DNA of 51,615 nt, taken from the IMG/VR virus record IMGVR_UViG_3300046535_000970, positions 1-51,615 of that record; one strand, given 5' to 3'. Below are positions 1 through 12,479 of the stretch, one piece after another (position 1 is the stretch's first letter; each line of letters starts with the position of its first letter). The translations under genes and the position numbers were made by a program. The notes beneath the pieces are model-generated. The model saw only the letters and a list, made by a program, of their open reading frames with translations. It was not told the DNA's origin and ran no database searches. This DNA comes from a virus.

Positions 1-46
1 CCTGCCACACTTCCCAATACTCCGGTTCTTCTGCTCGTTTACTCAT
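1..46 (-). CDS. small hypothetical protein, 5' fragment (complete copy at 51364-51534)
   Basis: This is the first 46 bases of the gene that reads leftward through the circle junction; the full copy lies at 51364-51534. It begins with ATG and the residues MSKRAEEPEY, with GAGGGAG a few bases upstream as ribosome binding site. Its ATG overlaps the TGA of the preceding gene (ATGA), so the two genes are probably translationally coupled. The protein is not recognised. Confidence 0.7.
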   Translation of the reverse strand, partial: MSKRAEEPEYWEVWQ

Positions 47-127
47 TGTGACTCCCTCGCATCTAATCGTTCTTGAATCCACTGTTCGACAACTTCTGAA
101 TTCAGCCCAAGCCCATGAAGGTATTCT
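1..127. repeat. terminal direct repeat (left copy)
   Basis: Bases 1-127 are identical to 51489-51615. The length equals a k-mer size commonly used by short-read assemblers, so this is most simply the overlap left when a circular or circularly permuted genome is assembled. It means that the genes cut at both window ends are one continuous gene. Confidence 0.93.
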
Positions 128-387
128 TGACAGTTATCACAACGAACCTCTGTCTCGATTCCACCTGTCTCGCCGCCTTCGTCGTATTCAACCATCATCG
201 AGAATGTCAGGTGGCCTCCGCATCGAACAGCCCTCGCTCTTTGCGCCTCTCGCTTTGTGCGTAACGTGCCTTTCACTTCAGAGATAAAGCGATCCCAGTC
301 GAGATGATAAGTCCCGATGCTTGACCGCGCAGTTGGCTTACCCTTCTTATTGAACTTGTCGGGATCAACCCATGCCTGACACTTCAT
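43..387 (-). CDS. hypothetical protein with a CxxC motif, 114 aa
   Basis: A leftward gene starting at 387 behind AGGAGAACAGTC, a leader almost identical to those before 885 and 50955. The middle is basic (KREAQRARAVRCGGH) and is followed by an acidic segment and VRCDNCQEYLHG, so C57, C83 and C86 could form part of a metal site. It overlaps both neighbours by ATGA. No family is recognised. The tight packing in the leftward operon, good start signal and sensible composition support it as a real gene. Confidence 0.7.
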   Translation of the reverse strand: MKCQAWVDPDKFNKKGKPTARSSIGTYHLDWDRFISEVKGTLRTKREAQRARAVRCGGHLTFSMMVEYDEGGETGGIETEVRCDNCQEYLHGLGLNSEVVEQWIQERLDARESQ

Positions 388-680
388 GACTGTTCTCCTG
401 CGTCGTCTACCATGAAGTCTAGCCAGTTTCGTCCCGTGCGCCCGACTCCGCCTTTTTTGGAGATGTACACCGTCACTCTTCGGCTATCGCGTGGAGCGCG
501 TTCTATCGGCCCGTAGATTTGCCCCGCTATGTGTTTTTGAAGAAATGCCACAGCTTCGGTCTGAGTTAGAATTTTGGTTGATTTCCGCGGCTCCGACGCG
601 ATAATGCCGTTCAAATCTACTGCGCTAATATGGTTTAGATTGTTCATGGCTTTATGCAGAGCAAGTTTCGCGCCCCGCAT
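384..680 (-). CDS. hypothetical basic protein, 98 aa
   Basis: Leftward gene overlapping its downstream neighbour by four bases. Two starts are possible: ATG at 680 (98 aa), which overlaps the upstream gene by 29 bases, or ATG at 647 (MNNLNHIS, 87 aa), which would leave a normal short spacer. Neither has a strong ribosome binding site. Visible features are a Q-T-E-A-V-A-F-L-Q-K helix in the middle and the glycine-containing segment KKGGVGRTGRNWLDF near the C-terminus. No family is recognised. Confidence 0.6.
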   Translation of the reverse strand: MRGAKLALHKAMNNLNHISAVDLNGIIASEPRKSTKILTQTEAVAFLQKHIAGQIYGPIERAPRDSRRVTVYISKKGGVGRTGRNWLDFMVDDAGEQS

Positions 681-885
681 CGATCACCCGAAGTTTGGCG
701 TCATCAGCGGGAATGAACGGCCCTGCGTCACTACGTCCAACCTCCGCGTACTCATAACCGCCAACCTTCCTTTGGGCCACGATGTCCTGCACTTCCTTTA
801 CGACTTCCACTGCGCGAATTAATGAACGGTAGCGCCAATCGCCGACCTTTTGGCCTTGCAAATATAAATCAACGAAAATCTTCAT
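652..885 (-). CDS. hypothetical protein, 77 aa
   Basis: The start was chosen at ATG 885 because it overlaps the stop of the upstream gene (ATGA). The frame stays open upstream, but that extension is an arginine-rich shadow. The protein begins MKIFVDLYLQGQKVGDWRYR and looks like a small alpha/beta fold with a helix (VEVVKEVQDIVAQRK). No conserved domain is recognised. It belongs to the leftward early block transcribed from about 6.05 kb. Confidence 0.62.
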   Translation of the reverse strand: MKIFVDLYLQGQKVGDWRYRSLIRAVEVVKEVQDIVAQRKVGGYEYAEVGRSDAGPFIPADDAKLRVIDAGRETCSA

Positions 886-1172
886 GACTGTGACTGTTCT
901 CCTTCTGGTGGGAATAATTCGTCGCGCAGATTGTTGGCGATGTGAATTGCAAGTCTGCACTCAGGACAGTTTTCAGTATAAGGATGGGTTCGATAAACTT
1001 GATGCTCAATCGCAGTCACAAAGTTTATTATCTCTGCTCGGTCGTCCACGTCGCTTTCTAATCGTTCCATGATCTTATTCAGAATAAACTCCTTGTCGTA
1101 ATCTCCCCATCTCGCCCACACATCTTTTACTGCTTGAATAGCAGCCGCCCTGGTTGGTTCTGATTTGCTCAT
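882..1172 (-). CDS. hypothetical helical protein, 96 aa
   Basis: A leftward gene that is acidic and mostly helical, with EHQVYRTHPYTENCPECR (one CxxC) towards the C-terminus and a QSQS tail. AGGAAGGA lies about 14 bases upstream of ATG 1172, which is a long spacing. It overlaps the next gene by ATGA. Function is unknown; the CPEC pair alone is not enough to assign a zinc ribbon. Confidence 0.62.
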   Translation of the reverse strand: MSKSEPTRAAAIQAVKDVWARWGDYDKEFILNKIMERLESDVDDRAEIINFVTAIEHQVYRTHPYTENCPECRLAIHIANNLRDELFPPEGEQSQS

Positions 1173-1225
1173 AAGCTATTCAAATCCTTCCTCGTGCGCG
1201 ACCATAGGGCTACTCACGGCGCTCG

Positions 1226-1456
1226 TTACTTCTCAGACGACCGCTCGCTTTTCGCTCGCAAAGATTCTTTCTTCAACGGTCGATAACTTGGCGCAGGGAT
1301 GTTCAATCCTTTGAATCCGCCATTATCAGCTGCCTTCTTGCGCTCAGGGTAACGGTCTGAGAAGCGAGTCAGAGGCGAGAATAATTGCTCAGTGGCGCAA
1401 CCCAATTCGCCGGCGCACACGTCTAAATCTTCGCTTGTGTCGAGTAGGGCGATCAT
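1226..1456 (-). CDS. hypothetical basic protein, 76 aa
   Basis: Starts at ATG 1456, overlapping the stop of the 233-residue gene (ATGA), which supports coupling. The C-terminal half is lysine- and serine-rich (PLKKESLRAKSERSSEK). No domain is recognised. A gap of 53 bases separates it from the next gene downstream, and I see nothing in that gap. Confidence 0.58.
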   Translation of the reverse strand: MIALLDTSEDLDVCAGELGCATEQLFSPLTRFSDRYPERKKAADNGGFKGLNIPAPSYRPLKKESLRAKSERSSEK

Positions 1457-2154
1457 TTCTCCTCATGTGCTGCCCGCATTCGGCCACAACAAACGGGAAA
1501 TCCTTCACCATCCCTCTCGACAGGAACGGTACAAACGTCATCGCCATCCGTGGAATAGAAACCGTGGCCTCGCTCTGCATCTAGCACTATAACGCGGTCG
1601 TCGCCCGTCAGTGGTTTGTAATAATATGGACAGGTATTTTCATGGAAGATAAGTTGTCCACATTTGGAGCACGCTTCGGATTTGAGAAACCGATGCCCGT
1701 TAAGACAATACTGGCGACACCGCTCCGCCAAGTCAAGATAGCCCCCAGCTTCGTTCCATCGAGCATTAGATTCGCATTGCAGACAAACCTGATTCATTAT
1801 AATCACCCCTTCAACTTGCCTTCTTTGATTAACTTCTCCTGGTAGCGAGGAATCTTCCCTTTGAGTTTGCGAAATCGGCGCCGGGAATGGATCGCCTAGA
1901 ACCTCGCGGACCTTCTTATGCCAAGCCCCGTCGCCAGTCTTATCCAGCGATTCACGAAGTAAAGTCTCTAACTCCAAAATGCGCGTGGCTGAGTCGTAGT
2001 TCGTTCGGGCTAACTCTGTGACGGTGCCGTGGATTAAAAGTAATTTGCTCATCTCAGTTTTGAATACTCCACATCTTATGCAGTACCTTCCGTTGACGTG
2101 CCATACGTGTTGTCCATCATCGCTATCACGCGGCAATATCGGCTTACAATTCAT
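1453..2154 (-). CDS. cysteine-rich hypothetical protein, 233 aa (possible internal start)
   Basis: ATG 2154 is the first start downstream of the interrupted gene; the frame stays open further upstream only because it runs into the transposon. Cysteine pairs occur at CIRC near the N-terminus and at CLQC, CSKC and CPYYY in the C-terminal half, so several zinc ribbons are likely. An unusually good ribosome binding site (AAGGGGTGAT) precedes an in-frame ATG at 1797 (MNQVCLQCES), which would give a separate 114-residue product. It may therefore be a fusion of two small genes that can still be translated separately. Function is unknown. Confidence 0.6.
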   Translation of the reverse strand: MNCKPILPRDSDDGQHVWHVNGRYCIRCGVFKTEMSKLLLIHGTVTELARTNYDSATRILELETLLRESLDKTGDGAWHKKVREVLGDPFPAPISQTQREDSSLPGEVNQRRQVEGVIIMNQVCLQCESNARWNEAGGYLDLAERCRQYCLNGHRFLKSEACSKCGQLIFHENTCPYYYKPLTGDDRVIVLDAERGHGFYSTDGDDVCTVPVERDGEGFPVCCGRMRAAHEEK

Positions 2155-2177
2155 CAGCTGCGAATCCCTGAATCCCG

Positions 2178-2210
2178 CTCCGTTCTCAAGACGTTCGCTC
2201 CGGCTCAGGT
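2178..2210. repeat. 33-bp direct repeat, copy 1
   Basis: Identical to 51356-51388. On the minus strand it encodes the C-terminal residues EPERTS and stop of the interrupted 81-residue protein, plus a few bases beyond. The second copy does the same for an otherwise unrelated 56-residue protein. Confidence 0.85.
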
Positions 2211-2325
2211 TCGTGGCTTTTCGTGTGCTTATTGCGGCATCTTCTACACAGCAGCACGTTATCTTCTCGCGCCCGCCAACCGTTATTGTAGAAGGCCGTT
2301 GAAGCTCCGTCCGTATCGAAACTCT
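2186..2325 (-). pseudogene. 3' part of phage CxxC protein gene interrupted by the transposon
   Basis: Reading through the insertion, 4984-4871 joined to 2317-2186 gives an uninterrupted 81-residue frame: 38 codons upstream, then 43 codons and TGA. The rebuilt protein has CALC in the first half and CRRC in the second, a typical zinc-ribbon spacing, and ends PEPERTS. The join is exact after removing one copy of the 8-bp duplication GAAACTCT. The gene is presumably inactive in this genome. Confidence 0.85.
2318..2325. repeat. target site duplication GAAACTCT, left
   Basis: The eight bases directly before the left terminal inverted repeat equal the eight bases directly after the right one (4871-4878). 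Eight-base duplications are typical of IS1595-family insertion. Confidence 0.95.
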
Positions 2326-2348
2326 GGCAATAATATACTTGACTCCGC
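2326..2348 (+). repeat. left terminal inverted repeat
   Basis: Begins GGCAATA and continues into ATACTTGACTCCGC. Against the right end it differs only at positions 5 and 6 of 23. It contains the -35 box (TTGACT) of the transposase promoter. Confidence 0.94.
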
Positions 2349-2367
2349 AGAGGTTCTCCAGTATAGT
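2339..2367 (+). promoter_or_regulatory. transposase promoter, -35 inside the inverted repeat
   Basis: TTGACT (2339-2344), a 17-bp spacer and TATAGT (2362-2367) are followed after seven bases by ATG 2375. There is no ribosome binding site, so the transcript would start at or next to the start codon (leaderless). Confidence 0.7.
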
Positions 2368-2374
2368 TCTATAC

Positions 2375-3340
2375 ATGATGAAGAACGCGGAACCGACAAG
2401 CCTTCAAGAAGCAATCGTTTACTTCTCGAATCCTGATAACTGCATTAACTATTTGGTTGAACGCCGCTGGCCAGATGGCGTGACCTGTCCGTATTGCGGA
2501 TCGGATCAAGTTACGTTCATGCCAAAGCGCCGCTTGTGGCAATGCAAAGGCCGTCACTCCAAGGCTCAATTTTCGATTAAGGTCGGAACGATTTTCGAGG
2601 ACTCTGCTATCCGCCTCGACAAGTGGCTGTGCGCCATGTGGATGCTCGCCAACTGCAAGAACGGCGTTAGCAGTTGGGAGATTCACCGCTCGATCAAGGT
2701 CACGCAAAAGTCCGCATGGTTCATGCTGCAACGCCTGAGACTTGCTCTTCAAGATGACGGTTCTGGCGGCAAGCTGAGCGGCCACGTTGAAGTAGATGAA
2801 ACCTACATCGGCGGCAAGGCGCGCAATATGCACAAGGCCCGAAAGCAGAGAGCCAGACTGTCGCCCACAGGCATGGTCGGCAAGGTTGCCGTTATGGGAT
2901 TGCTTGAGCGTCACGGTCGCGTGCGCACAATGGTTGTTCCTGAAACTACGCGTGCCGTCCTGCAACCGAGAGTGCGCCAGCACGTCGAATACGGTTCTGC
3001 CCTTTACTCTGACTCGCATCGCGCATACGAAGAGATGGAGGACGCTTACGTTCGTGGAGTTATCAATCACGCGGAACGATACGTTGACGGTTTGGTTCAT
3101 ACGAACGGAATGGAAAACTTCTGGTCGCTTCTCAAGCGCGGTTTGAAGGGCACGTATATCTCTGTTGAGCCGTTCCATCTGTTTCGCTATCTCGATGAAC
3201 AAAGTTTCCGTTTCAACAACCGCAAAGAGAACGATGCTTATCGTTTTGATCTCGCGGTCTCTCAAATCGTCGGCAAGCGCCTTACCTACGCGCAAGTAAC
3301 TGGTAAGAGCAGCGATGCCGACCGTAAATTATCGTGCTAA
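2375..3340 (+). CDS. IS1595-family (ISXO2-like) transposase, 321 aa
   Basis: DDE-type transposase expected to cut and join the ends of this element. The N-terminus has a zinc ribbon (CPYCG near residue 38, WQCKGRH near 56-61), then a helix-turn-helix (about 96-125). The catalytic domain starts at VDETYIGG (D141), continues with YSDSHRAY (D213) and ends with VHTNGMENFWSLLKRGLKG (H242, N244, E247), the diagnostic C-terminal signature of the ISXO2-like domain. Length and domain order are those of complete family members. ATG 2375 was chosen because it sits seven bases after the -10 box; the frame is open to 2339, but that part is inverted repeat. No frameshift or missing catalytic residue is seen. 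Confidence 0.95.
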   Translation: MMKNAEPTSLQEAIVYFSNPDNCINYLVERRWPDGVTCPYCGSDQVTFMPKRRLWQCKGRHSKAQFSIKVGTIFEDSAIRLDKWLCAMWMLANCKNGVSSWEIHRSIKVTQKSAWFMLQRLRLALQDDGSGGKLSGHVEVDETYIGGKARNMHKARKQRARLSPTGMVGKVAVMGLLERHGRVRTMVVPETTRAVLQPRVRQHVEYGSALYSDSHRAYEEMEDAYVRGVINHAERYVDGLVHTNGMENFWSLLKRGLKGTYISVEPFHLFRYLDEQSFRFNNRKENDAYRFDLAVSQIVGKRLTYAQVTGKSSDADRKLSC

Positions 3341-3546
3341 GCAACGCGCTTTGTCCGTGACGAAGCAACGCGGGAAGAAGCGGTCAAGCTAGGCCGCTTC
3401 TTTTTTTTCGGGCCACGTTTGCGAGGGTTGTTATCCGCTAATTCCCGTGCCTCGGCTACGCGTTTTTGAATGACTGAATGAGGAACCGCCAAGACGCGGC
3501 TGACTAAGTGATCGAAGGCGTCAAACTCTTCGTTACGTTTACTCAA
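3337..3546 (-). CDS. small basic cargo protein, 69 aa (TTG start)
   Basis: The last cargo gene of the transposon. TTG 3546 is preferred: it overlaps the TGA of the DUF1828 gene and is preceded by GGCGAGAG, whereas longer readings would use DUF1828 coding sequence. The protein has an acidic helical N-terminus (KRNEEFDAFDHLVSRVL, then a conserved-looking PHSVIQKRVAEARE) and a strongly basic tail (KRGPKKKKRP) that could bind nucleic acid. Its stop overlaps the end of the transposase by four bases. Similar small basic proteins are widespread in bacteria, but no function is known to me. Confidence 0.72.
   Translation of the reverse strand: MSKRNEEFDAFDHLVSRVLAVPHSVIQKRVAEARELADNNPRKRGPKKKKRPSLTASSRVASSRTKRVA
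3377..3408 (+). terminator. rho-independent terminator of the transposase gene
   Basis: GAAGCGG (3377-3383) pairs with CCGCTTC (3394-3400) across a ten-base loop and is followed by eight T. It lies inside the coding sequence of the convergent cargo gene, where the T run encodes a lysine tract. Confidence 0.85.
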
Positions 3547-4307
3547 TGTATACTCTCGCCTTTGAGATCGGCAACCAAAGTTTCCCGCGCAGTCCACCGG
3601 TAAACATCAGACTTGCTGCCTAACAAATTAACATCTTCAGAGCGAACGGTAACCACGTCATCATTAAAGAGGGTGTATTTGTCTCGATGGTCGCTTACGT
3701 CCGACCACATTCTGAAAATGCCATTAACTTTAGACACCATGCCAGCGGGCGTTCTAGGGGACACCGTGGCAATTAAAGTCTCCCGAGTATCAAATCTCGC
3801 CTTCAGGCTTACTTTGTAATTCGATCCAGATGCGCCTTGGATCGGGAAGTGGCGCTCGACAAAAATCTTCTCGCCAGTTAAATAGTCCGCCACTTCTTCA
3901 TTGAAAACCGCGGGTGAGTACGCCTTGCTTCCATATACCAAATCGCTGATCGCTTTACAGGCGGTAACCACTTCAAAAAGCAGGTCGGCGACATCCTCTA
4001 AACGCCCACGCTTTACAATAACGCCGCGGTCTACACTCACGCCTAGACCTTCCGCAATCCGATTCGCGGTAAATTGTCTCGTTGAATATCCGATAACCTC
4101 AAAGCCAACTGTTTCCAGGTAACGCATCGTTTCACCCAAATCACTGACTGTGAGTATGTCGCCATCCGTCTTAACGAATAGCTCGATCCGATCGTGATCT
4201 GGGTAAAGGTAAGGCGTTATGATGCGCAAACGATCACCACTTGGCAGGCAAGCAAATTCGCCCTGCAACTGCTTAACATAACTGCCGATGATTTCGTCGC
4301 AGGTCAT
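3543..4307 (-). CDS. DUF1828-domain cargo protein, 254 aa
   Basis: The N-terminal ~100 residues match the DUF1828 pattern: a helical start, ITPYLYPDHDRIELFV, then DGDILTVSDLGETMRYLETVG, followed by a helical segment with a RGVIV turn. The C-terminal half (KVSLKARFDTRETLIATVSP) is a second alpha/beta domain of the kind seen in longer DUF1828 proteins. It overlaps both cargo neighbours (ATGA upstream, CATTGA downstream), so the three form one coupled operon. DUF1828 proteins have no established biochemical function. A selfish or defence-related role is only an inference from their mobile context. Confidence 0.85.
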   Translation of the reverse strand: MTCDEIIGSYVKQLQGEFACLPSGDRLRIITPYLYPDHDRIELFVKTDGDILTVSDLGETMRYLETVGFEVIGYSTRQFTANRIAEGLGVSVDRGVIVKRGRLEDVADLLFEVVTACKAISDLVYGSKAYSPAVFNEEVADYLTGEKIFVERHFPIQGASGSNYKVSLKARFDTRETLIATVSPRTPAGMVSKVNGIFRMWSDVSDHRDKYTLFNDDVVTVRSEDVNLLGSKSDVYRWTARETLVADLKGESIH

Positions 4308-4774
4308 AGCACTAACTCCATCTGGGTTGGCGGCAAATCCGCAAGGCGCACACTACACTGTATTCCAAATTCTTTACAGAAATATTCCAAGCTATCTTGG
4401 ATGCTTTTGCCAACGTCTGCGGTTGGGCTATAAGCAAAGCGATCATGACATAGGTCAGTCCAGCGATGATAATGAGACTGGCCAAGCCACTTTTCTTTAT
4501 TTGTATGCCTGTTCGAGTGGCTCCCGTTGATATCAAGACCACGAATTCTAGCAGCGTTATTCAACAACAACGCTATCGAGTACCGATCTGAAATTATCTG
4601 ACTTGCCGTTATAACCACTCTGAGACTGGCGCTCTTGTTGTTCTCAACTGGAATGTCAATCTTCACCCATGATTTGTTTGCGGAGCTGTGCCACAAATAC
4701 GTACCGTCAATGGTTAACTCCCCGTCATGGATGAGAGCATCAACATTAGGTTCACGTACTTGAGGAACGGCCAT
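4304..4774 (-). CDS. cargo protein paired with DUF1828, 156 aa
   Basis: First gene of the cargo operon, overlapping DUF1828 by ATGA. Visible features are a beta-rich N-terminal half (DGELTIDGTYLWHSS, SWVKIDIPVEN), a central LDINGSHSNRHTN segment and a histidine-rich turn WLGQSHYHRWTD that could coordinate metal or form an active site. A C-terminal helix is followed by a beta strand. It resembles hypothetical proteins often encoded beside DUF1828 genes, but I cannot name the family with certainty. The start at 4774 has only a weak upstream AAGG. Confidence 0.75.
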   Translation of the reverse strand: MAVPQVREPNVDALIHDGELTIDGTYLWHSSANKSWVKIDIPVENNKSASLRVVITASQIISDRYSIALLLNNAARIRGLDINGSHSNRHTNKEKWLGQSHYHRWTDLCHDRFAYSPTADVGKSIQDSLEYFCKEFGIQCSVRLADLPPTQMELVL

Positions 4775-4828
4775 AGAGGACGACGCCTTGTGACACGGCA
4801 GGGACTCTGGACTTCAATTTCGGGTCGG

Positions 4829-4857
4829 AGCATAATCTCAAAGCTTCGCGGAGTCAA
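4829..4857 (-). promoter_or_regulatory. cargo-operon promoter, -35 inside the right inverted repeat
   Basis: On the minus strand TTGACT (4857-4852), a 17-bp spacer and TATGCT (4834-4829) point at the cargo genes starting at 4774. It mirrors the transposase promoter at the other end, so each inverted repeat donates a -35 box. Confidence 0.6.
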
Positions 4858-4870
4858 GTATATTTATGCC
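4848..4870 (-). repeat. right terminal inverted repeat
   Basis: Read inward on the minus strand it begins GGCATAA and shares ATATACTTGACTCCGC with the left end. It supplies TTGACT as -35 box for the cargo operon. Confidence 0.94.
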
Positions 4871-4878
4871 GAAACTCT
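4871..4878. repeat. target site duplication GAAACTCT, right
   Basis: Exact partner of 2318-2325. Deleting one copy and the element between restores an open frame of 81 codons. Confidence 0.95.
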
Positions 4879-4984
4879 CAATAGCGTCTTGTTTGCCACA
4901 CAGAGCGCACACAGCCTTAAAAGTCCCGATTAGACATTCCGAAATAAGAAATTCTTGCCGATTTAGGAATGAGGCTCGTTTCAT
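4871..4984 (-). pseudogene. 5' part of phage CxxC protein gene interrupted by the transposon
   Basis: Starts at ATG 4984, overlapping the stop of the 57-residue gene upstream (ATGA), and reads MKRASFLNRQ before entering the transposon's right end after codon 38. See 2186-2325 for the other half. Its translated N-terminal fragment would now run on into transposon sequence. Confidence 0.83.
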
Positions 4985-5154
4985 TGCTCTAGCTCGCTCG
5001 GTTCCTCGACTGGAACTGGCAATGGAACAATCATCAATCCATGCTGAACAAGTGGATTGTCATCGATTGCGGCCTCGTACTGCTCATCACAATGCGGGCA
5101 TCTCAGAATGATATGATGACCCACAACTGCGGTTGTTAGTTTTCTTTCGTCCAC
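4981..5154 (-). CDS. zinc-ribbon-like small protein, 57 aa (GTG start)
   Basis: GTG 5154 follows the leader GAGGGAGAGAAGG. The sequence includes HHIILRCPHCDEQYEAA (CPHC) and a proline-rich acidic tail (PVPVEEPSELEQ). Its TGA overlaps the ATG of the interrupted gene. The leader contains a hairpin also found before the gene at 9080. No specific function is recognised. Confidence 0.65.
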   Translation of the reverse strand: MDERKLTTAVVGHHIILRCPHCDEQYEAAIDDNPLVQHGLMIVPLPVPVEEPSELEQ

Positions 5155-5164
5155 CCTTCTCTCC

Positions 5165-5185
5165 CTCGCCGGTTTACCGGCTCAC
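5165..5185 (-). promoter_or_regulatory. 21-bp hairpin leader element, copy 1
   Basis: Read on the minus strand, the 21 bases equal 9048-9068 on the plus strand. The core GCCGG-TAAA-CCGGC can form a five-pair hairpin with a four-base loop, directly upstream of a purine-rich ribosome binding site and a start codon in both places. Confidence 0.7.
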
Positions 5186-5213
5186 GAATCGTTGCTGAAA
5201 AGGGCGTCTCAAG

Positions 5214-5273
5214 TCACCCTTTGCTTTGAATCTCTGCATCCTTCTCTACCTTAGCCACTTCTTGTTCACTCAT
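5214..5273 (-). CDS. possible 19-residue peptide gene
   Basis: ATG 5273 has GAGGG about nine bases upstream and opens a 19-codon frame of charged residues (MSEQEVAKVEKDAEIQSKG) ending in TGA. It fits the gap between two operon genes and has a normal ribosome binding site, but a frame this short can arise by chance. Confidence 0.35.
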   Translation of the reverse strand: MSEQEVAKVEKDAEIQSKG

Positions 5274-5291
5274 AATCAATCCCTCACCCTT

Positions 5292-5510
5292 TCACTGGCT
5301 CTCCTTGATTCGCTTAAGGAGAACATTAGCGACCTCGTCGCAGAAATCAGTACGTTGTTCATTTACGTCGCCCGATTCGTCCATGTGCCAGTCACCGGGG
5401 CCGTAGAAGCTCCACGGTTCTCTCTTACCATTGACCAGCCGGCCTTCGTCAAGACAGTGAAGGATCGCGCCACGGATTTCTGCGAGTTCATGGATGGATA
5501 GATCAATCAT
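5292..5510 (-). CDS. hypothetical acidic protein, 72 aa
   Basis: A leftward gene starting at ATG 5510, overlapping the stop of its upstream neighbour (ATGA). An N-terminal helix (DLSIHELAEIRGAILHCLDEG) is followed by a tryptophan-rich segment (WSFYGPGDWHMDESGD) and a C-terminal helix. No family is recognised. Confidence 0.62.
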   Translation of the reverse strand: MIDLSIHELAEIRGAILHCLDEGRLVNGKREPWSFYGPGDWHMDESGDVNEQRTDFCDEVANVLLKRIKESQ

Positions 5511-5770
5511 TTGCAGCCGCCTTTCAGAGAGTCACAAATCCACTGACAGTTCACGTATCGACCAGGATCGCCCACGAAGTCATAATCAACCTCGGCGCAC
5601 TCACTACAAACAGGCCGCTCGCATCGGTCACATTCCTGCACTTGGCAGTCGATATTGAAACTGGCAGCGAATCCGCAGAGATAGCACGTATCTTCCTTGT
5701 CATCGCCAACACTCGGCAAATTGAAATGCGGATCGTTATCAGTCACGCCAGCGGGATAATTACTCATCAT
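5507..5770 (-). CDS. zinc-binding protein with three cysteine pairs, 87 aa
   Basis: The start is ATG 5770 or 5767, both placed behind a strong GGAGGAG; ATG 5767 directly overlaps the TAA of the upstream gene. Cysteine motifs are CYLC, CQVQECDRC and CSEC, followed by a last pair around WICDSLKGGCK, a pattern like a B-box or LIM-type zinc finger. It is probably a small protein-binding zinc module. Its target is unknown. Confidence 0.7.
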   Translation of the reverse strand: MMSNYPAGVTDNDPHFNLPSVGDDKEDTCYLCGFAASFNIDCQVQECDRCERPVCSECAEVDYDFVGDPGRYVNCQWICDSLKGGCK

Positions 5771-6008
5771 CTTCTCCTCCAACTACTCCAGATTTCCTAC
5801 AATCAGGACAAGGTATCCATTCTGTCTTACGCCCGAAGTGGTCAATCTCAACCTCTATAAAGCCCGTTCCTTCGCAGCGTTCGCAGGGACGTTCTTCCCG
5901 CCGCGCCTCTACCGCATTGGCCGCCTCTCGGTATGCTTGAATGCGCTTACCAGACTCAACCAATCGCCTAATGGCGTTCTCAAGTGCTATTGGCCCTGCG
6001 TATCCCAT
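5760..6008 (-). CDS. DnaJ-type zinc-ribbon protein, 82 aa
   Basis: ATG 6008 is preceded by AAAGGAGAGAGAG; longer readings lack such a site. The N-terminal half is helical. The C-terminal half has CERCEGTGF and CPDCRKSG, the CxxCxGxG pattern of DnaJ cysteine-rich domains, here as two repeats. It is the first gene of the leftward block and is transcribed from the promoter at 6077-6049. Confidence 0.7.
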   Translation of the reverse strand: MGYAGPIALENAIRRLVESGKRIQAYREAANAVEARREERPCERCEGTGFIEVEIDHFGRKTEWIPCPDCRKSGVVGGEDDE

Positions 6009-6048
6009 CTCTCTCTCCTTTGAGTCGCCCCAGCTTTGACATGCCCGC

Positions 6049-6077
6049 ATTTTGAACCTGTCCGTTAGGTTTGTCAA
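6049..6077 (-). promoter_or_regulatory. leftward early promoter with operator in its spacer
   Basis: TTGACA (6077-6072), exactly 17 bp, then CAAAAT (6054-6049). The spacer is the dyad AACCT-N7-AGGTT (6055-6071), so a bound repressor would sit between the two boxes. The transcript would begin near 6042 and reach the first gene at 6008. Confidence 0.68.
6055..6072. promoter_or_regulatory. operator site 1
   Basis: AACCTGTCCGTTAGGTTT, an imperfect palindrome (AACCT/AGGTT) that fills the spacer of the leftward promoter. Two similar sites follow at 38- and 39-bp steps. Confidence 0.62.
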
Positions 6078-6092
6078 CATACTATTTCGTGC

Positions 6093-6110
6093 AACCTGTC
6101 CGTTGGGATT
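6093..6110. promoter_or_regulatory. operator site 2
   Basis: AACCTGTCCGTTGGGATT, 15 of 18 bases identical to site 1. It lies midway between the two divergent promoters and is not itself in a recognisable promoter. Confidence 0.55.
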
Positions 6111-6125
6111 CGGTCACATTGACAC

Positions 6126-6154
6126 TTTACAAATCTATCCGTTAGGTTTAACGT
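6126..6154 (+). promoter_or_regulatory. possible rightward promoter
   Basis: TTTACA (6126-6131), a 17-bp spacer and TAACGT (6149-6154). The -10 box is weak. GTG 6163 follows after eight bases without a ribosome binding site, consistent with a leaderless start. Confidence 0.42.
6132..6149. promoter_or_regulatory. operator site 3
   Basis: AATCTATCCGTTAGGTTT shares the CCGTTAGGTTT half with site 1. It fills the spacer of the possible rightward promoter. Confidence 0.55.
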
Positions 6155-6162
6155 CTGAATCC

Positions 6163-6309
6163 GTGAAAGTCACACCAGAAATCAGCGCGGTCATGGCCGA
6201 ACTTGGCCGCATTAAAAGCAAGAAGAAAGCTGCGGCCTCGCGGAAGAACGGCAAAAAAGGCGGCCGCCCTAAATCCCGCAACGGCAAGGGCCAGAAGAGG
6301 GGCAAATGA
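6163..6309 (+). CDS. small basic protein, 48 aa, first gene of the rightward block
   Basis: GTG 6163 is the probable start (ATG 6193 is an alternative). The protein is very basic, with KSKKKAAASRKNGKKGGRP and a lysine/arginine tail, a composition common in small phage and plasmid DNA-binding proteins. Its position at the divergent operator region makes it a candidate regulator, but no helix-turn-helix is visible. Its stop overlaps the next start (ATGA). Confidence 0.58.
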   Translation: MKVTPEISAVMAELGRIKSKKKAAASRKNGKKGGRPKSRNGKGQKRGK

Positions 6310-6473
6310 ACAAAGAATGTCAAACATGTGATGGTGGCGGCGAAGTGCAGGAAGAATGCTCTTGCTGCGGCGGTAGCGGCGTCGAATATGACGAGTGTTA
6401 CGACTGTGGTGGCACTGGCGAAGTTGAGGAAAAGCCAGGGATTGAAGCCACTGGCAACGAGGGGAGTTCGTAA
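6306..6473 (+). CDS. DnaJ cysteine-rich-domain-like protein, 55 aa
   Basis: ATG 6306 follows AGAGGGGC and overlaps the previous stop. The short protein is almost only a zinc domain: CQTCDGGGE, CSCCGGSGVE and CYDCGGTGE, three CxxCxGxG-type repeats like those of the DnaJ chaperone zinc centre, with an acidic tail. No J-domain is present. It faces a related two-repeat protein across the control region. Confidence 0.68.
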   Translation: MNKECQTCDGGGEVQEECSCCGGSGVEYDECYDCGGTGEVEEKPGIEATGNEGSS

Positions 6474-6519
6474 CGTCTAAAGATTGTGGGCCGTAAACGG
6501 CGAGGAGATAGGGCACAAA

Positions 6520-6720
6520 ATGGCATTCAAAATCACCATTCAACAAACTCTTGATGAACAGCGACATATCGGCAAAGAATGGCGACTGGTTGAGAAAGAC
6601 CGCTACGACTACACGCCGGAAACAGACACGGTTGCGACTGTTACGCGGATACTTTACGAGCAGACAGTTAGCGACTTAGACCTGTGGGCAGTTGTCTCGG
6701 CGGTAAACGGGAAGGATTAA
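6520..6720 (+). CDS. hypothetical protein, 66 aa
   Basis: ATG 6520 was chosen over the upstream in-frame ATG because AGGGCA lies just before it. The sequence MAFKITIQQTLDEQRHIGKE, followed by alternating strands and helices, suggests a compact alpha/beta fold. No family is recognised. Confidence 0.62.
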   Translation: MAFKITIQQTLDEQRHIGKEWRLVEKDRYDYTPETDTVATVTRILYEQTVSDLDLWAVVSAVNGKD

Positions 6721-6724
6721 CCCC

Positions 6725-6838
6725 ATGAGATTCGCATACGAAGAAGAATACGCCCGCATGGTGCAGAAATATGGAATTCCAAACACGCGAGTTCCGCTAT
6801 GGCGCAGATTACTTAAGTTTCTACGAATTATGAGTTGA
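6725..6838 (+). CDS. small hypothetical protein, 37 aa
   Basis: ATG 6725 has GGAAGGA about eight bases upstream and follows the previous stop by four bases. The product is aromatic and basic (EEEYARMVQKYG, then PLWRRLLKFLRIMS). It is too short for a family call. Confidence 0.5.
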   Translation: MRFAYEEEYARMVQKYGIPNTRVPLWRRLLKFLRIMS

Positions 6839-6903
6839 AGGATTTTGCTGCGGCGGAGTGGACAGTGACACTCTCCGAGTCGAGTAGAGAGGCAGACCCT
6901 AAC

Positions 6904-7206
6904 ATGGGCAGACCAAGCGATAAAAGTCGTGCGGCACGACGACCAGGACAGCGTGAACGAGCGCGGGTAAAGAAGCACAGGCGGGGAACATCCACCTGTT
7001 ATGTGGCTGGCGCTTGCCTCTACACGCTCAAGGCTGGTCGAAAGAAGTGGGATGAGTTCTATCGTTCGCGAAGGAATCCGCTTAACATGCGGAATCTGGA
7101 AGCGGACAATGACACTCTAGCCATGCGCCCATCAGTAGGGGAACCAGTTAATCTCGAAAGCCGGAACATAAACCGAAACGGCCAGCCTATAACGGTAGTC
7201 GGGTGA
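6904..7206 (+). CDS. hypothetical basic protein, 100 aa
   Basis: The start is uncertain. ATG 6904 (MGRPSDKSRAARRPGQRE) looks natural, but TTG 6835 would overlap the previous stop and add 23 residues. The N-terminal third is strongly basic; the rest has no recognisable domain. It may bind nucleic acid, which is an inference from charge only. Confidence 0.5.
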   Translation: MGRPSDKSRAARRPGQRERARVKKHRRGTSTCYVAGACLYTLKAGRKKWDEFYRSRRNPLNMRNLEADNDTLAMRPSVGEPVNLESRNINRNGQPITVVG

Positions 7207-7260
7207 CATTAAAACAATTCCCGATCCGCAGCATTACAAAGATAGCTGAGGTTAATTGAA

Positions 7261-7398
7261 ATGACTGAAACAACTGGAATCCACGATTCAAACGAATGTG
7301 ATTGTGAGATGTGCAGATGGGCTGACAGCGTTGAAAAACGCCACGCAGCCGAACAACAGGCCGAGCAGGAAAGGCTTCAGGTCGTCAATGCTTCCTAG
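7261..7398 (+). CDS. small cysteine-containing protein, 45 aa
   Basis: ATG 7261 has GAGGT eight bases upstream. The product contains ECDCEMCRWADSVEKRH and a glutamate/glutamine-rich helix. It overlaps the start of the following nuclease gene by 11 bases, suggesting coupling. Confidence 0.52.
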   Translation: MTETTGIHDSNECDCEMCRWADSVEKRHAAEQQAEQERLQVVNAS

Positions 7399-8155
7399 GG
7401 TTCAGGACATCCTGTTTGATTATCTCGCTTCCGCGCAGAAGCAGTATCTTGCACCGACTGAGATACGTTCCCGCGTCTCGTCTGCTGGTAAGTGCGCCAG
7501 AGCGATCGGTTTACAGATTTCCGGCTTGACTGCGACGAATCCGCCAGATGGGTATTCCCTGGTGAATTTCCATATCGGGGACGCGATTCACGACATGGTT
7601 CAGAAGGCGATCATTGCCCACTGGCCGGACGCTCAGACTGAGGTTGAAGGTTCTATTGATGACTTCCTGACAGGACATTGTGACGTGCTTTATACCGCCG
7701 AAGACGGGGAGAAGGTTGTCTGTGAGATTAAGTCGATAGCTGATTTCGGGTTTGAACTCGCTACAGGGGCGGAATTGAAGTCGAACGGGCGGTGGAAGAA
7801 GAAGGAAAAGGTCATTGAAGGGCCGAAGCGCGAACACAAGTTACAAGCGTCGATATACGCCATCATGTTAAGGGCTAAATACGTCGCCATTGTCTACGTG
7901 AGAAAGACTGCTACAAAGGGCGAAGTCGTGACGTGGGAATGGCGTTTTAACCTAAGAGAGCTATATGACATAGCTTCTGAGGAAATCTCGCGTCAAAGGG
8001 CGATTGTGGCGCAAGTAAGGGCTAGTGAACTGCCTGAGAGAGAGTGGGAAGGGGCGATAATCACCGATCCAGCTAAAACCAAGTGGCCGTGTGGTTATTG
8101 TGACTTTCAGGATGCGTGTTTAAAACTCGGCCCGGGAGTGGTGAAAATTGCGTGA
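7388..8155 (+). CDS. Cas4/RecB-like PD-(D/E)XK exonuclease with Fe-S cysteines, 255 aa
   Basis: The core motifs of the PD-(D/E)XK nuclease superfamily are visible in order: H69 in GDAIHDM, D99 in TGHCDV, E113-x-K115 in VCEIKS and the QxxxY motif at Q153/Y157 (LQASIYAIM). One cysteine near the N-terminus (C36, AGKCARAIG) and three at the C-terminus (C235, C238, C244 in CGYCDFQDAC) match the four ligands of the 4Fe-4S cluster in Cas4 and AddB-type enzymes. It probably resects DNA ends for phage recombination or replication. ATG 7388 was chosen for its place after AGGTCG and because upstream codons belong to the previous gene. It is followed by coiled-coil and SSB-like genes, as in recombination cassettes. 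Confidence 0.85.
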   Translation: MLPRVQDILFDYLASAQKQYLAPTEIRSRVSSAGKCARAIGLQISGLTATNPPDGYSLVNFHIGDAIHDMVQKAIIAHWPDAQTEVEGSIDDFLTGHCDVLYTAEDGEKVVCEIKSIADFGFELATGAELKSNGRWKKKEKVIEGPKREHKLQASIYAIMLRAKYVAIVYVRKTATKGEVVTWEWRFNLRELYDIASEEISRQRAIVAQVRASELPEREWEGAIITDPAKTKWPCGYCDFQDACLKLGPGVVKIA

Positions 8156-8493
8156 ACGACATCATCTCAGTCCATCAGGAACTTTTAAGGCTCTCCAAGT
8201 CTCTCGCCACGGCGGTTAATGAATATGCCGAGGCCGCTAAAGACGCTGCCGAGAAACGAACCGCTTACGATGTCCTCTGGGCGCAGGCGATGATTCAGGC
8301 CGATGATGATTGGACGCAAAAGATTAAGGAAGCTCAGGCAACTAAAGCATGTTCGACACAGATGCTTGAAGCGCGGGTTGCCGAAGCGGTACGCGATGCG
8401 CTGAAGGAACGTATCAGAGCGCTTGAAACTGTACTTTCTGTGCAGCAAAGCAGGCTCAGATACATGGAATCAACTGAAAAAGACTACAACTAA
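8152..8493 (+). CDS. coiled-coil protein of the recombination cassette, 113 aa
   Basis: GTG 8152 overlaps the stop of the nuclease gene (GTGA), with GGAGTGG upstream. The sequence is almost entirely alpha-helical with heptad-like spacing (ELLRLSKSLATAVNEYAEAA; RVAEAVRDALKERIRALE), indicating a coiled coil. The location between a Cas4-like nuclease and an SSB-like gene suggests an accessory role in DNA processing, but no family is recognised. Confidence 0.68.
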   Translation: MNDIISVHQELLRLSKSLATAVNEYAEAAKDAAEKRTAYDVLWAQAMIQADDDWTQKIKEAQATKACSTQMLEARVAEAVRDALKERIRALETVLSVQQSRLRYMESTEKDYN

Positions 8494-8507
8494 CAAAGGA
8501 CACGAAC

Positions 8508-8897
8508 ATGAACATAAATGATGCATTTCCCAGTAAGTACCTGAAAACCGCAGACCTCAAAGGCCGCGATGTCACGGTCACAATCGACGCGGTGGAGATG
8601 ATTACCCTGCCGAACGATCAAGGGCGCAAGCTGGCTCTCAGGTTTGAAGGCAAAGACAAGCAGTGGATCGTGAACAAGACCAACGCCAACACCATCGCCA
8701 AGCTGCTCAATTCGGGCGTGATGGAAGATTGGATTGGCAAGCAAATCACGATCTACCCGACAGAAACGGCATACCAGGGCGAGATGGTTGACTGCATCCG
8801 GGTGCGACGAAACAAAGCAGCAGACAGTTGGGAAGAGCCGCCGCGGAGCGTTGCGCCGGCAGCGCCACCTGATGACCTCAGCGATATCCCGTTCTAA
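8508..8897 (+). CDS. single-stranded DNA-binding-like protein, 129 aa
   Basis: The N-terminal ~100 residues are strand-rich and OB-fold-like (GRDVTVTIDAVEMIT, KLALRFEGKDKQWIV, WIGKQITIYP). The last residues, PPDDLSDIPF, match the acidic DDDIPF tip by which bacterial SSB proteins recruit partners. AAAGGACACGAAC gives a ribosome binding site for ATG 8508. It probably coats ssDNA during phage replication or recombination. The OB fold is inferred from pattern, while the C-terminal tip is directly visible. Confidence 0.75.
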   Translation: MNINDAFPSKYLKTADLKGRDVTVTIDAVEMITLPNDQGRKLALRFEGKDKQWIVNKTNANTIAKLLNSGVMEDWIGKQITIYPTETAYQGEMVDCIRVRRNKAADSWEEPPRSVAPAAPPDDLSDIPF

Positions 8898-8905
8898 AGT
8901 TCCCT

Positions 8906-8938
8906 GACGCCTCCTTTTGGGGAAGAGGTAAAGGCGTC
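8906..8938 (+). other. stem-loop 1 after the SSB-like gene
   Basis: GACGCC (8906-8911) can pair with GGCGTC (8933-8938). No T run follows, so it is not a standard terminator. Confidence 0.4.
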
Positions 8939-8945
8939 AATGGAA

Positions 8946-8987
8946 GCGGAGCAGGTTCTTCCTATTCGCATGGTTAGCTTGCTCCGC
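8946..8987 (+). other. stem-loop 2 after the SSB-like gene
   Basis: GCGGAGCA (8946-8953) pairs perfectly with TGCTCCGC (8980-8987) across 26 bases, followed by ATTTAAG. Two adjacent stems in a 182-base gap before the gene at 9080 suggest a structured leader, RNA element or processing site. Confidence 0.45.
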
Positions 8988-9047
8988 ATTTAAGATTTGA
9001 AGTGTGCGATCAAAGGGAAATCTCAAGACGACCTACTATTTCAGAGT

Positions 9048-9068
9048 GTGAGCCGGTAAACCGGCGAG
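9048..9068 (+). promoter_or_regulatory. 21-bp hairpin leader element, copy 2
   Basis: Same 21 bases as the reverse strand of 5165-5185, including the GCCGG-TAAA-CCGGC hairpin. It ends just before GAGAGGGA and ATG 9080, which decides that start. Confidence 0.7.
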
Positions 9069-9079
9069 AGGGAAACCAA

Positions 9080-9559
9080 ATGTTGAGTAAGTGGGATAAT
9101 TTGAAAGAGTGGGCAGAGCGTAAATTGCGCAAGTTGATTGGGCGCGTTTTGGCTGTTGAGGGCGAGGATGGACATAACCGCCTTTGCCGCTTTAATACTT
9201 GGGTTTGTCATTACGGGCCACATGGAACCTTTGAATATGTCAGCCATATCAACCTAAAAGCGGGTGGTCATTTGTGCCTGATAGGAACCTGTTGCGGCGA
9301 GCCTACCGAAAGTCACATGCGTCAAATGGATGAACAGTTGATGTGGTTTCACGCCACCGAAAAAGTCTTGCGCGAGTCGGGCGCATTGCAGACGTTTGTT
9401 TGGGAGAACTCACGATTCTCAGCGTCTACGCTTTGCAACTGCGGCCAGCCTGACAATCCACGATTGCCAGAACATCAGCCACTTTGTCCGTATCGTGTCG
9501 AACACGATTTTCAGCCGAGCATCGAAGAGTACCGCGAGGCTCTAGCTTCGGTGAACTAA
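9080..9559 (+). CDS. hypothetical cysteine-rich protein, 159 aa
   Basis: ATG 9080 was chosen because GAGAGGGA and the shared hairpin leader directly precede it. The basic helical N-terminus (WAERKLRKLIGRVLAV) is followed by a region with several cysteines (RLCRFNTWVCHYG, CLIGTCCGE, LCNCGQPDNP, LCPYR), probably metal-binding. No family is recognised. The gene shares its leader with the 57-residue gene at 4981, so both may respond to the same control. Confidence 0.62.
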   Translation: MLSKWDNLKEWAERKLRKLIGRVLAVEGEDGHNRLCRFNTWVCHYGPHGTFEYVSHINLKAGGHLCLIGTCCGEPTESHMRQMDEQLMWFHATEKVLRESGALQTFVWENSRFSASTLCNCGQPDNPRLPEHQPLCPYRVEHDFQPSIEEYREALASVN

Positions 9560-10046
9560 TCCGGCGCGGGACGCGGGGACAACGACGGAGAAGCATCCGC
9601 CTAAAACACTTCGACCGCCAAAACTCGTGTGAGTTCTGACGGCCTCGGTGTGACTAGGTATCTGAATGCGCAAGCGGACGGAGAGAGCCTAGCAAAAAAC
9701 CTGTTGACGCGCAAGTTAATTCGGCGTAATGTTCTGGTCGACTACGGTATTTGAAAAAGTGGATTCCAGCCTTTCAAAGAATCCCTAACATAGTCCGTCT
9801 CCAAAGGAAGCACTTGCAGCATACGGTCTGACAAGCCGGAATTGCAGATAACGTCGCTGTAAAGAGTCGCCATAGGATAAGCCGCCGTTGTTCACTCAGG
9901 GGCGCATCACAGACGATAGCGACGCTGTAGTTCGTGCCTCTCGGATAGAGACGTAAATAATCAGAAATGTCGGCCCGCTTGTCTTAGATACCGGAAGACA
10001 AGAACTACACCGAGAGGGAACCTGCACCAAGTACCGCGATCCATAC
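9560..10046. other. 487-bp region without a convincing gene; several hairpins
   Basis: Stops are frequent in all frames. Possible secondary structures include AACTC-GTGT-GAGTT near 9623-9636, GGATTC...GAATCC at 9761-9784 and GTCTT...AAGAC at 9981-9999. A possible promoter is TTGACG (9704-9709), 17 bp, then TAATGT. It may hold a non-coding RNA, an origin or the leader of the GNAT gene; none is proven. Confidence 0.45.
9561..9580. repeat. GC-rich dispersed repeat, related copy
   Basis: CCGGCGCGGGACGCGGGGAC resembles the two longer copies at 15313-15339 and 51027-51053 (reverse strand). Here it is non-coding, immediately downstream of a stop codon. Confidence 0.5.
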
Positions 10047-10673
10047 GTGGACGTGGCGGGTAGAGCTAGGAAGGTCTACCTGCGCCCGCTTACCGCCGTA
10101 GACGTGATGGTTATGAGTGATACGATCCTCAGAGAAGGTATTGCAAGTGATTGGCTGTTTATTGATTCTCTGCGAAAACGAGAAGGCTCTGCGCTTGGGT
10201 TTCTACCTAAGGATACCTATTGCACCGTTTTGGAGAACCGACCTCTCCGCGTGCGTGACATGCGGGCTTACAAAACAAATCGAATCATTGTCACGGAAGA
10301 TAACGGTGATTTAACTGGTTATGCCTATTACACGATGGCTTCTGATTGGTTAATAGTCGTGCAGATTGTTGTCCAAGAAGATGCGCGGAGATGGTATCGA
10401 GCAATGCTAATGATTAATGAGATAGAGGACGATGCTAATCGGTACGGTAAACACGGCGTCACTGCCCGCGTTGCTTATGATCTCGAAAGTAATTTCTTTT
10501 GGAGGGCAATCGGATATGTTCCGATTAAGCAAATAACGAGCACTTGGCTCAATCAGAAGGAAAGCAAGTCCAAACGACCGCTCTGGATTTACAGGAAAGA
10601 AATTGGAGGATTATTCACAGATGGACAGCAAGCCTGTGGAAATGTGGAGATGTCAATTTCACTTGAACCTTAG
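10047..10673 (+). CDS. GNAT-fold acetyltransferase-like protein, 208 aa (GTG start)
   Basis: The N-terminus YLRPLTAVDVMVM is the usual first strand and helix of GNAT enzymes. GDLTGYAYYTM and a core strand WLIVVQIVVQEDARRWYRAM follow, then a helix and RVAYDLESNFFWRAIGYVP, which matches the GNAT motif B region where the partner strand ends in a G-Y/F-x-P. The classical acetyl-CoA loop (Q/RxxGxG/A) is replaced by EDARRWYRA, so activity is uncertain. GTG 10047 is the only reasonable start in the frame. The substrate is unknown. A second GNAT-like gene lies at 41932. Confidence 0.65.
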   Translation: MDVAGRARKVYLRPLTAVDVMVMSDTILREGIASDWLFIDSLRKREGSALGFLPKDTYCTVLENRPLRVRDMRAYKTNRIIVTEDNGDLTGYAYYTMASDWLIVVQIVVQEDARRWYRAMLMINEIEDDANRYGKHGVTARVAYDLESNFFWRAIGYVPIKQITSTWLNQKESKSKRPLWIYRKEIGGLFTDGQQACGNVEMSISLEP

Positions 10674-10944
10674 TGCTTCATGGAAAGCAGATGTAGATAA
10701 GACGGTTACAGACGTGGAGTTATGGAGAGAAATCTTAGCAAATTGGCATTACTGGAAAAACGGTCGCAAGATTAAAAAATCACCCGGAATCAAACAATTA
10801 CTTTCAGAATACGAACGGCAATCAATGAATCATGAAATTCGAGAGCAAAGAGATATACCAGAACGCAGTAGAGAAGGGATGGCCGAACGGAGCTATAGCC
10901 CGCTGCCATCGTTGCGGATTTCAGCGGCCGGCTGGAAAGGATGA
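10621..10944 (+). CDS. hypothetical protein, 107 aa, overlapping the next gene
   Basis: ATG 10621 has GGAGG nine bases upstream. The first ~70 residues (MDSKPVEMWRCQFH to GIKQLLSEYERQ) look like a normal small helical domain. The last ~37 overlap the next gene by 113 bases in another frame and look like a shadow of it, so the original stop may have been lost by a frameshift. No family is recognised. Confidence 0.5.
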   Translation: MDSKPVEMWRCQFHLNLSASWKADVDKTVTDVELWREILANWHYWKNGRKIKKSPGIKQLLSEYERQSMNHEIREQRDIPERSREGMAERSYSPLPSLRISAAGWKG

Positions 10945-11044
10945 ACTGGCGTTCTGGTTCGAGAATGGCTTCCCGCGGTGCAAGTGCGACGAACGCAACC
11001 CGCCGCGGATCGACATTATTCAACCCTGTGAGGTAAAGAGATGA
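10832..11044 (+). CDS. zinc-ribbon protein, 70 aa
   Basis: Contains ARCHRCGFQRPAGKDELAFW and GFPRCKCDERNPP, two cysteine pairs about 25 residues apart, a compact zinc ribbon. ATG 10832 starts inside the upstream frame. It overlaps the next gene by ATGA. Its role is unknown. Confidence 0.65.
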   Translation: MKFESKEIYQNAVEKGWPNGAIARCHRCGFQRPAGKDELAFWFENGFPRCKCDERNPPRIDIIQPCEVKR

Positions 11045-11283
11045 CTCCAGAAACCAAATCGCAAGAGCAACTTATATTGCAGGCGCTTTTGGCCGGTCGG
11101 AAGCTTACACCAATCGATGCATTAAACGATTTCTCGTGTTTCAGACTTGGGGCAAGGATTTTCAACTTGAAGGCGCAGGGAGTACCGATTTTGGATGAAT
11201 GGTTCACGACCGCGAGCGGCAAGAAAGTAAAAGCCTACTTCATGAACGTATCTAATCCAGCGCAGCCGGAGTTGTTTTCATGA
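11041..11283 (+). CDS. helix-turn-helix protein, 80 aa
   Basis: The pattern SQEQLILQALLAGRKLTPID, then ALNDFSCFRLGARIFNLKAQ and GVPILDEWF, is the small winged-helix domain common in phage and prophage early regions, where the second helix carries the F-x-C-x-R-L-x-A-R-I motif. It probably binds DNA. It lies in a run of genes coupled by ATGA overlaps. Confidence 0.75.
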   Translation: MTPETKSQEQLILQALLAGRKLTPIDALNDFSCFRLGARIFNLKAQGVPILDEWFTTASGKKVKAYFMNVSNPAQPELFS

Positions 11284-11663
11284 AACCAGGCCCATCAGTT
11301 CGTATCAATTGGAACTCTCCTGTGCGAGTCTGTCCAAGTTGCCCATCTGAAGTCGGCCCTCAGCCTCTGGACGCATTCTATCGATGTGCTACACGTCCGA
11401 ATGGAAAGACAAGCCAATGCAAGGTATGTATCGACAAGCGTGACCGGAACGCATATCGAAAGGCATGTGTGATGTCAGCACCTAAAGACCGAAGGGCAAA
11501 AATCAAGTGGGCAATAACTCAAGGCGCGAGAACGAGAGAAGCGATACAGGCAGTAACCCGGATACCGTGGGATGAGTTGTGCGACCTATTGGCGATGCTG
11601 AGATTTGATGATGGGGAATTAACATTTGATCGAGTAACGAGAGAATTCGGAGTAGCGGCGTGA
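11280..11663 (+). CDS. zinc-finger protein with C-terminal helical domain, 127 aa
   Basis: N-terminal cysteines CPSC...RCATRPNG...CKVCIDKRDR resemble the metal-binding start of phage HNH proteins, but no catalytic HH-N-H core follows. The C-terminal half (GARTREAIQAVTRIPWDELC) looks like a winged helix. It is probably nucleic-acid binding and precedes an HNH-type gene. Confidence 0.6.
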   Translation: MKPGPSVRINWNSPVRVCPSCPSEVGPQPLDAFYRCATRPNGKTSQCKVCIDKRDRNAYRKACVMSAPKDRRAKIKWAITQGARTREAIQAVTRIPWDELCDLLAMLRFDDGELTFDRVTREFGVAA

Positions 11664-11971
11664 AACGGTCTTATCTCAAGCGTGGCACTAAACGTCTCGG
11701 CCCGGGTAAAAAGGTGAGGGACTGGGAATCTGCGCGTCGTAAGCTCAAGATGAGATTTGAGATTGCCGGGATTACGAGTTGCGAGCTTCGATGGGGTGAT
11801 TGTGCTTTTGATAACTATCTCGGCTTTGCTCATGCCCAGAAGCGCAGGAACGTGAAAGACCTGAACGTAGTCATTCTGGCCTGCAACTTCTGCCACGACC
11901 AGCTGGAGATTATGCCGAACATGGAACGGATCGTGACGGGCGTAATCGCCGCAAGAAAGGTTCAGCCATGA
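11660..11971 (+). CDS. HNH-like nuclease, 103 aa
   Basis: A basic N-terminus (KRSYLKRGTKRLGPGKKVRD) leads to TSCELRWGDCAFDNYLGFAH, then RRNVKDLNVVILACNFCHDQ. Two cysteine pairs frame a histidine (FAHAQKRR) and a final CHDQLE, the layout of compact phage HNH endonucleases in which AH is the catalytic histidine. It could act as a resolvase-like or nicking nuclease. Its neighbours are another zinc protein and a VRR-NUC-like nuclease. Confidence 0.7.
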   Translation: MKRSYLKRGTKRLGPGKKVRDWESARRKLKMRFEIAGITSCELRWGDCAFDNYLGFAHAQKRRNVKDLNVVILACNFCHDQLEIMPNMERIVTGVIAARKVQP

Positions 11972-12443: not shown

Positions 12444-12452
12444 AAAAGATTC

Positions 12453-12479
12453 TTGCAAATGGTGGATTAAGCGTATAAT
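12453..12479 (+). promoter_or_regulatory. promoter before the membrane-protein block
   Basis: A perfect TATAAT (12474-12479) follows TTGCAA (12453-12458) at a short 15-bp spacing. The 110-base leader then ends in GGGAGG nine to ten bases before ATG 12590. This is the only TATAAT consensus I noticed before an operon. Confidence 0.55.

Follow-up and report, generated by a model that had tools for sequence, protein, structure and literature searches.

Positions 2326–4870 of a 51,615-bp phage record in IMG/VR (hereafter the window, the whole stretch of DNA that was analysed) hold an intact IS1595-family transposon of 2,545 bp. The account that we regard as probable, taken as a whole, is that of an autonomous IS1595-family transposon which combines a fixed core with exchangeable cargo, belongs to a separate and mainly acidobacterial lineage of transporter insertion sequences (tIS) and is hitchhiking in the phage.

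Element boundaries and insertion site

The element is bounded by terminal inverted repeats at 2326–2348 (plus strand, starting GGCAATAATATACTTGACTCCGC, an end found also in relatives) and 4848–4870 (minus strand), which agree at 21 of 23 positions and, when extended, at 25 of 30. Directly outside them lie the two copies of an 8-bp target duplication, GAAACTCT, at 2318–2325 and 4871–4878, an octamer that occurs nowhere else on either strand of the window. Identical 8-mer pairs spaced 0.7–6 kb apart number 6,026 in the record, and only the element's own pair is accompanied by inverted ends with 21 of 23 matches, the runner-up reaching 14 of 23, the level of shuffled sequence. Short inverted repeats and an 8-bp target duplication, as expected of the IS1595 family, are therefore both present. 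A preliminary description made from the sequence alone had reported the exact duplications and the repeat match, and both are borne out; the span of 2318–4878 that it gave to the element does contain all of these features, but the duplications lie outside the element proper. It had also proposed that the insertion split an 81-codon gene. Fusing the two flanks indeed restores an 81-codon, minus-strand ORF with a Zn-ribbon-like product, its 5′ part at 4879–4984 and its 3′ part at 2186–2325. No relatives of this interrupted ORF were found.

Transposase

The plus-strand gene at 2375–3340 encodes an intact, 321-residue DDE transposase of the IS1595 family (ISXO2-like), with a full DDE_Tnp_IS1595 domain (PF12762, 1.9e-39), an N-terminal IS1595 zinc ribbon (PF12760, 1.2e-10) and a match to the NCBIfam IS1595 model NF033547 (2e-50). 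The VEVDET, YSD and MEN motifs align with those of relatives and the catalytic motifs are kept, in agreement with the earlier recognition of an intact ISXO2-like transposase. It is the sole transposase between the ends, where no Tn7-like TnsA, TnsB or TnsC core genes were found. Ends, duplication, transposase and domains together support the original view of an intact IS1595-family transposon with cargo inside a phage genome. The nearest transposases are acidobacterial, both from Blastocatellia, at 75% and 71% identity; in annotated phage and plasmid collections no close relatives were found, the best matches being 31–38% identical.

The lineage and its tail gene

Relatives were sampled around transposases, the nearest 80 from bacterial genomes and a further 80 from viral contigs, and delimited via their ends and duplications. 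The census counts delimited elements only, unresolved boundaries occurring mainly in short or distant contigs, and members of the lineage have transposases mostly at least 48% identical to that of the phage-borne element. It comprises 87 delimited elements of 1.73–4.9 kb, mostly acidobacterial, and an exact 8-bp duplication is present in 72 of the 86 other than the phage-borne one (consensus CTAATTAG). No bare IS of ca. 1 kb occurs among these 87, the smallest measuring 1,727 bp. A second, more distant IS1595 lineage was seen in viral contigs (L113–L166; 34–44% identity, ends GGGAATTATATAC); its cargo, too, is short and varied, but the tail gene described below is missing from it.

The preliminary description counted three passenger genes on the strand opposite the transposase. 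All three ORFs are present on the minus strand, but the third, a 69-codon gene with a TTG start at 3337–3546, which we call the tail gene, is specific to the lineage. Homologues, with products of 38–83 residues, occur in 84 of the 87 delimited elements and are absent from all distant IS1595 elements examined. Across 12 whole genomes the gene lies beside 32 of 34 lineage transposases as against none of 15 distant IS1595 transposases (p 9e-11), and 36 of 43 tail-gene hits fall within 4.5 kb of a transposase match. Judged by its distribution in sequence, the third “passenger” is a gene of the transposon core and not cargo.

The tail gene tends to close the cargo operon at its 3′ end, whichever strand the operon uses, lying no more than 60 nt from it in 48 of 84 elements and overlapping it by exactly 4 nt in 18. 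These overlaps suggest that its translation is probably coupled to that of the cargo. The structural model of the product consists of a helical hairpin, predicted confidently, and a less certain basic tail, and the family has no match in the family libraries used; the protein probably has an accessory or regulatory role in the element.

Cargo exchange

Elements whose transposases are 80–98% identical nearly always differ in cargo, the genes being unrelated. With both lineages counted, cargo is common to none of 23 pairs whose transposases are 80–90% identical and to 4 of 42 pairs at 90% identity or above. Four elements with transposases 94–96% identical (L005–L008) contain four different cargoes, and the closest element to the phage-borne one (L002) likewise differs from it in cargo. 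In 51 pairs within the lineage, homology from the left side stops inside the tail gene, a median of 9 nt from its start, and returns over ca. 30 nt at the right end. On these alignments the whole cargo is exchanged en bloc, from the start codon of the tail gene to the right repeat.

Cargo content

Approximately half of the cargo belongs to no recognised family. The families that are recognised are nearly all nucleases, restriction or methylation proteins, toxin-antitoxin components or anti-phage proteins, and include GmrSD, AIPR, Mrr, RhuM, AlbA_2, PIN, RelA/SpoT and SocA as well as DNA methylases, PD-Lambda-5 and PD-Lambda-2, DruM, HEC-06 and others. PADLOC families gave 121 and 94 for cargo versus 1 for length-matched ORFs just outside the elements, figures which are per family rather than per protein and are inflated by methylases, so that they do not measure enrichment cleanly. 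Counted conservatively by protein (at least 9 of 81 for cargo versus 1 of 41 for flanking ORFs), the difference would not reach significance by itself.

The commonest cargo consists of DUF3800-like genes, in 23 elements, followed by a HEPN-like family in 16. Two members of the 23-element cluster match Pfam DUF3800 and others show an acidic xDES-type motif; DUF3800 has been modelled as an RNase H fold (PMC10910872). The HEPN-like family (L011, L012, L061 and 13 more) has products of ca. 290 residues with no Pfam match identified, and 14 of its 16 members have a C-terminal, HEPN-like RNxxxH motif. An assignment of this family to DUF3800 was dropped, none of the four members tested giving a match.

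The cargo pair of the phage-borne element

Two minus-strand cargo genes are present in the phage-borne element. That at 4304–4774 encodes a DUF6978-like protein, slightly below the Pfam cut-off, which matches PADLOC PDC-M24A (2.8e-17); that at 3543–4307 encodes a DUF1828 protein matching PDC-M24B (1.2e-35). With the tail gene they form three minus-strand ORFs with consecutive 4-nt overlaps (4304–4307 and 3543–3546). The A and B components are thus adjacent, as the PDC-M24 model has them, and the two passengers lie between IS-type ends, as in tIS. PDC-M24 is a candidate defence system only, even in PADLOC-DB 2.0, and no report of its activity was found in the literature searched. The HxN...HxH motif of the DUF6978-like protein, a pattern invariant across nine homologues of the family (L185–L203), could mark an active site or a metal site. 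When profiles of DUF1828, DUF6978 and the tail family were searched against solved structures, nothing useful emerged; a structure predicted for the DUF1828 protein from its sequence alone had a pLDDT of 36, too low for use, and no Rfam motifs, including those associated with DUF3800, were found in the element.

The pair also occurs as neighbouring genes in acidobacterial chromosomes. Of 396 genomes from the phylum Acidobacteria, 15 gave PDC-M24B matches; of 19 DUF1828 loci that were retrieved, 10 contain DUF6978 homologues, mostly directly adjoining the DUF1828 gene. No IS1595 transposase lies near the three chromosomal loci examined more widely, so the pair exists outside the transposon too. 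One chromosomal locus adjoins, by eye, an apparent type I methylase and HigBA pair. DUF1828 genes are also present in another virus, Humcor1, and as one annotated prophage protein; a search for DUF1828 relatives in viral contigs found none. Judging by its families, its gene neighbours and what sister elements carry, PDC-M24A/B is most likely an anti-phage or toxin-type system.

Phage genome and carriage in phages

The host record contains terminase, head and lysis-type genes, and thus the head and packaging genes expected of a virulent phage; matches were obtained for the large (3e-20) and small (2.9e-17) terminase subunits and the major head protein (5.5e-6), with a weak one for the portal (4e-4). 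Five related records of 72–75 kb have major head proteins 85–89% identical, and the four that were read in pieces have much of the structural block in common with the 51.6-kb phage. Despite this shared block the genome is ca. 21 kb shorter, and its early region (1–16000) is unlike that of the relatives. The first and last 127 bp (1–127 and 51489–51615) are exact repeats, a length seen also in the related record of L082, so that an assembler overlap, indicative of a circular contig, may account for them instead of a genuine terminal repeat. A phosphoadenosine phosphosulfate reductase-like gene lies among the structural genes (42867–43502) and is kept in three relatives. Near the record's end are tRNA-Asn(gtt) (49508–49581) and tRNA-Gln(ttg) (50275–50349), and an Rfam search found nothing but tRNAs in the record and nine relatives.

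Two attributes that the preliminary description gave the phage and its insertion fared differently. A search for tyrosine integrases, the type covered, found none in the record or its five relatives, and “lytic-looking” stands to that extent only. “Fixed” is not supported: the insertion is known from one assembled genome, an exact scan for an empty site gave nothing, and the five relatives lack the early region in which such a site could be compared. The same gene order with DUF1828 but without repeats in related phages, which would have spoken against a transposon, was not seen, the four relatives read having neither a DUF1828 nor a transposase gene.

Twenty elements of the lineage lie in viral records. 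Besides the 51.6-kb record and its relatives, a Terminase_6N gene is present in 9 of the 26 viral records searched, which may include prophages, and five of these nine (L089, L093, L095, L108 and L142) have an element with an exact duplication; carriage of the lineage by phages therefore recurs. The Blastocatellia affinity of the element's nearest relatives makes an acidobacterial host for the phage plausible.

Interpretation

In the proposed mechanism, each element is built from a fixed core, made up of the left repeat, the transposase and the small tail gene; a cargo cassette that can be exchanged comes next, and ca. 30 bp form the right end. Both ends would serve as recognition sites for the transposase, which would integrate the complete element and thereby duplicate 8 bp of target, in this case within an ORF of the phage early region; ends, duplication and motifs are seen, and the activity of the transposase is presumed from them. 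The tail protein would act as an accessory or regulator, translated by coupling to the cargo. It is further conceivable, although we think it improbable, that the tail gene, besides marking the boundary of the cargo, links the element to that cargo through translation, an arrangement distinct from integrons and Tn7-like islands. If so, the accessory protein would be made only by elements with expressed cargo, and such dependence would account for both the absence of bare copies and the clean replacement of cargo.

The element is most likely a hitchhiker in the phage, derived from an acidobacterial host, and its cargo could exclude rival phages. That PDC-M24A/B serves the phage, in superinfection exclusion or inter-phage competition, and that the insertion persists for this reason, would agree with the match of the pair to candidate anti-phage models, the DUF1828 genes in Humcor1 and a prophage, and the five exact-duplication elements in terminase-bearing viral records; but it is unlikely given a single phage genome, no relative with the cargo, and the same kind of element being common in bacterial chromosomes without a phage. 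It is possible, if doubtful, that the pair is instead a toxin-antitoxin or addiction module which stabilises the transposon, as its two small overlapping genes, the PIN, RelA/SpoT and SocA-type genes of sister elements and the apparent HigBA beside one chromosomal copy could indicate. PADLOC, on the other hand, models the pair as a defence candidate, and the searches of solved structures gave no toxin fold; the addiction and defence readings also overlap, many such modules countering phages as well.

For the tail gene, its place directly after the cargo operon on either strand, often with a 4-nt overlap, would also suit a gene that serves the cargo, as its antitoxin or immunity partner, and does not belong to the transposon. 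We consider this quite unlikely, as one tail family accompanies unrelated cargo types, and the gene is collinear with the transposase in close relatives and missing from distant IS1595 elements. Lastly, a bacterial transposon misjoined to a phage contig might be suspected in a metagenome assembly whose end repeat could stem from assembler overlap. A chimeric join would produce neither flanks that fuse into one ORF nor an exact 8-bp duplication found nowhere else in the record; this explanation is extremely improbable and was rejected because of that duplication.

The lineage points to a minimal vehicle by which anti-phage and toxin-type genes may spread among Acidobacteria, an important yet poorly understood group in soil, and at times enter phages. 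With it come a new protein family linked to transposons and a precise, directly testable boundary for cargo exchange, and since cargo is sharply bounded by the tail gene and the ca. 30-bp end, it provides a practical route for mining unknown defence-like genes.

Comparison with known systems

The gene cassettes of integrons are single-operon units exchanged at a defined boundary beside a fixed core, as here; the present elements, unlike integrons, have one cassette each, and no integrase or attC site was found. PDC-M24 as modelled in PADLOC-DB 2.0 has both genes in the same order, but here an IS1595 element carried by a phage contains the pair, and the tail gene follows it. The lineage, its tail gene and the exchange boundary were not described in the literature searched, from which most subscription journals were missing, the founding paper on IS1595 among them; a lineage combining a tail gene with cassette-like cargo exchange appears to have been undescribed until now.

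Passenger-carrying IS1595 elements are known as tIS (PMC11891212), one example being ISNha5, whose passenger is a regulator (Siguier et al., 2009, cited in PMC11891212 and PMC12888890). These resemble the phage-borne element in the IS1595-type DDE transposase, short inverted ends, 8-bp duplication and internal passengers. The present lineage differs in that no bare relatives were seen, in its lineage-specific tail gene, in swapping a cargo unit at a fixed boundary, in its defence-type cargo and in having one copy in a phage. Tn7-like transposons likewise have varied defence and toxin-antitoxin genes as cargo; they carry many defence systems, with the defence class enriched, and 26% of those surveyed contain known innate immune systems (Benler et al., 2021, PMC8649781). 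Unlike their TnsABC machinery, the present lineage has a single small DDE transposase and no target-selection genes, and its elements, of 1.7–4.9 kb, hold one to few cargo genes. IS1595 passengers and Tn7-like defence cargo are thus known, whereas the tail gene and the cassette-like exchange appear to be new.
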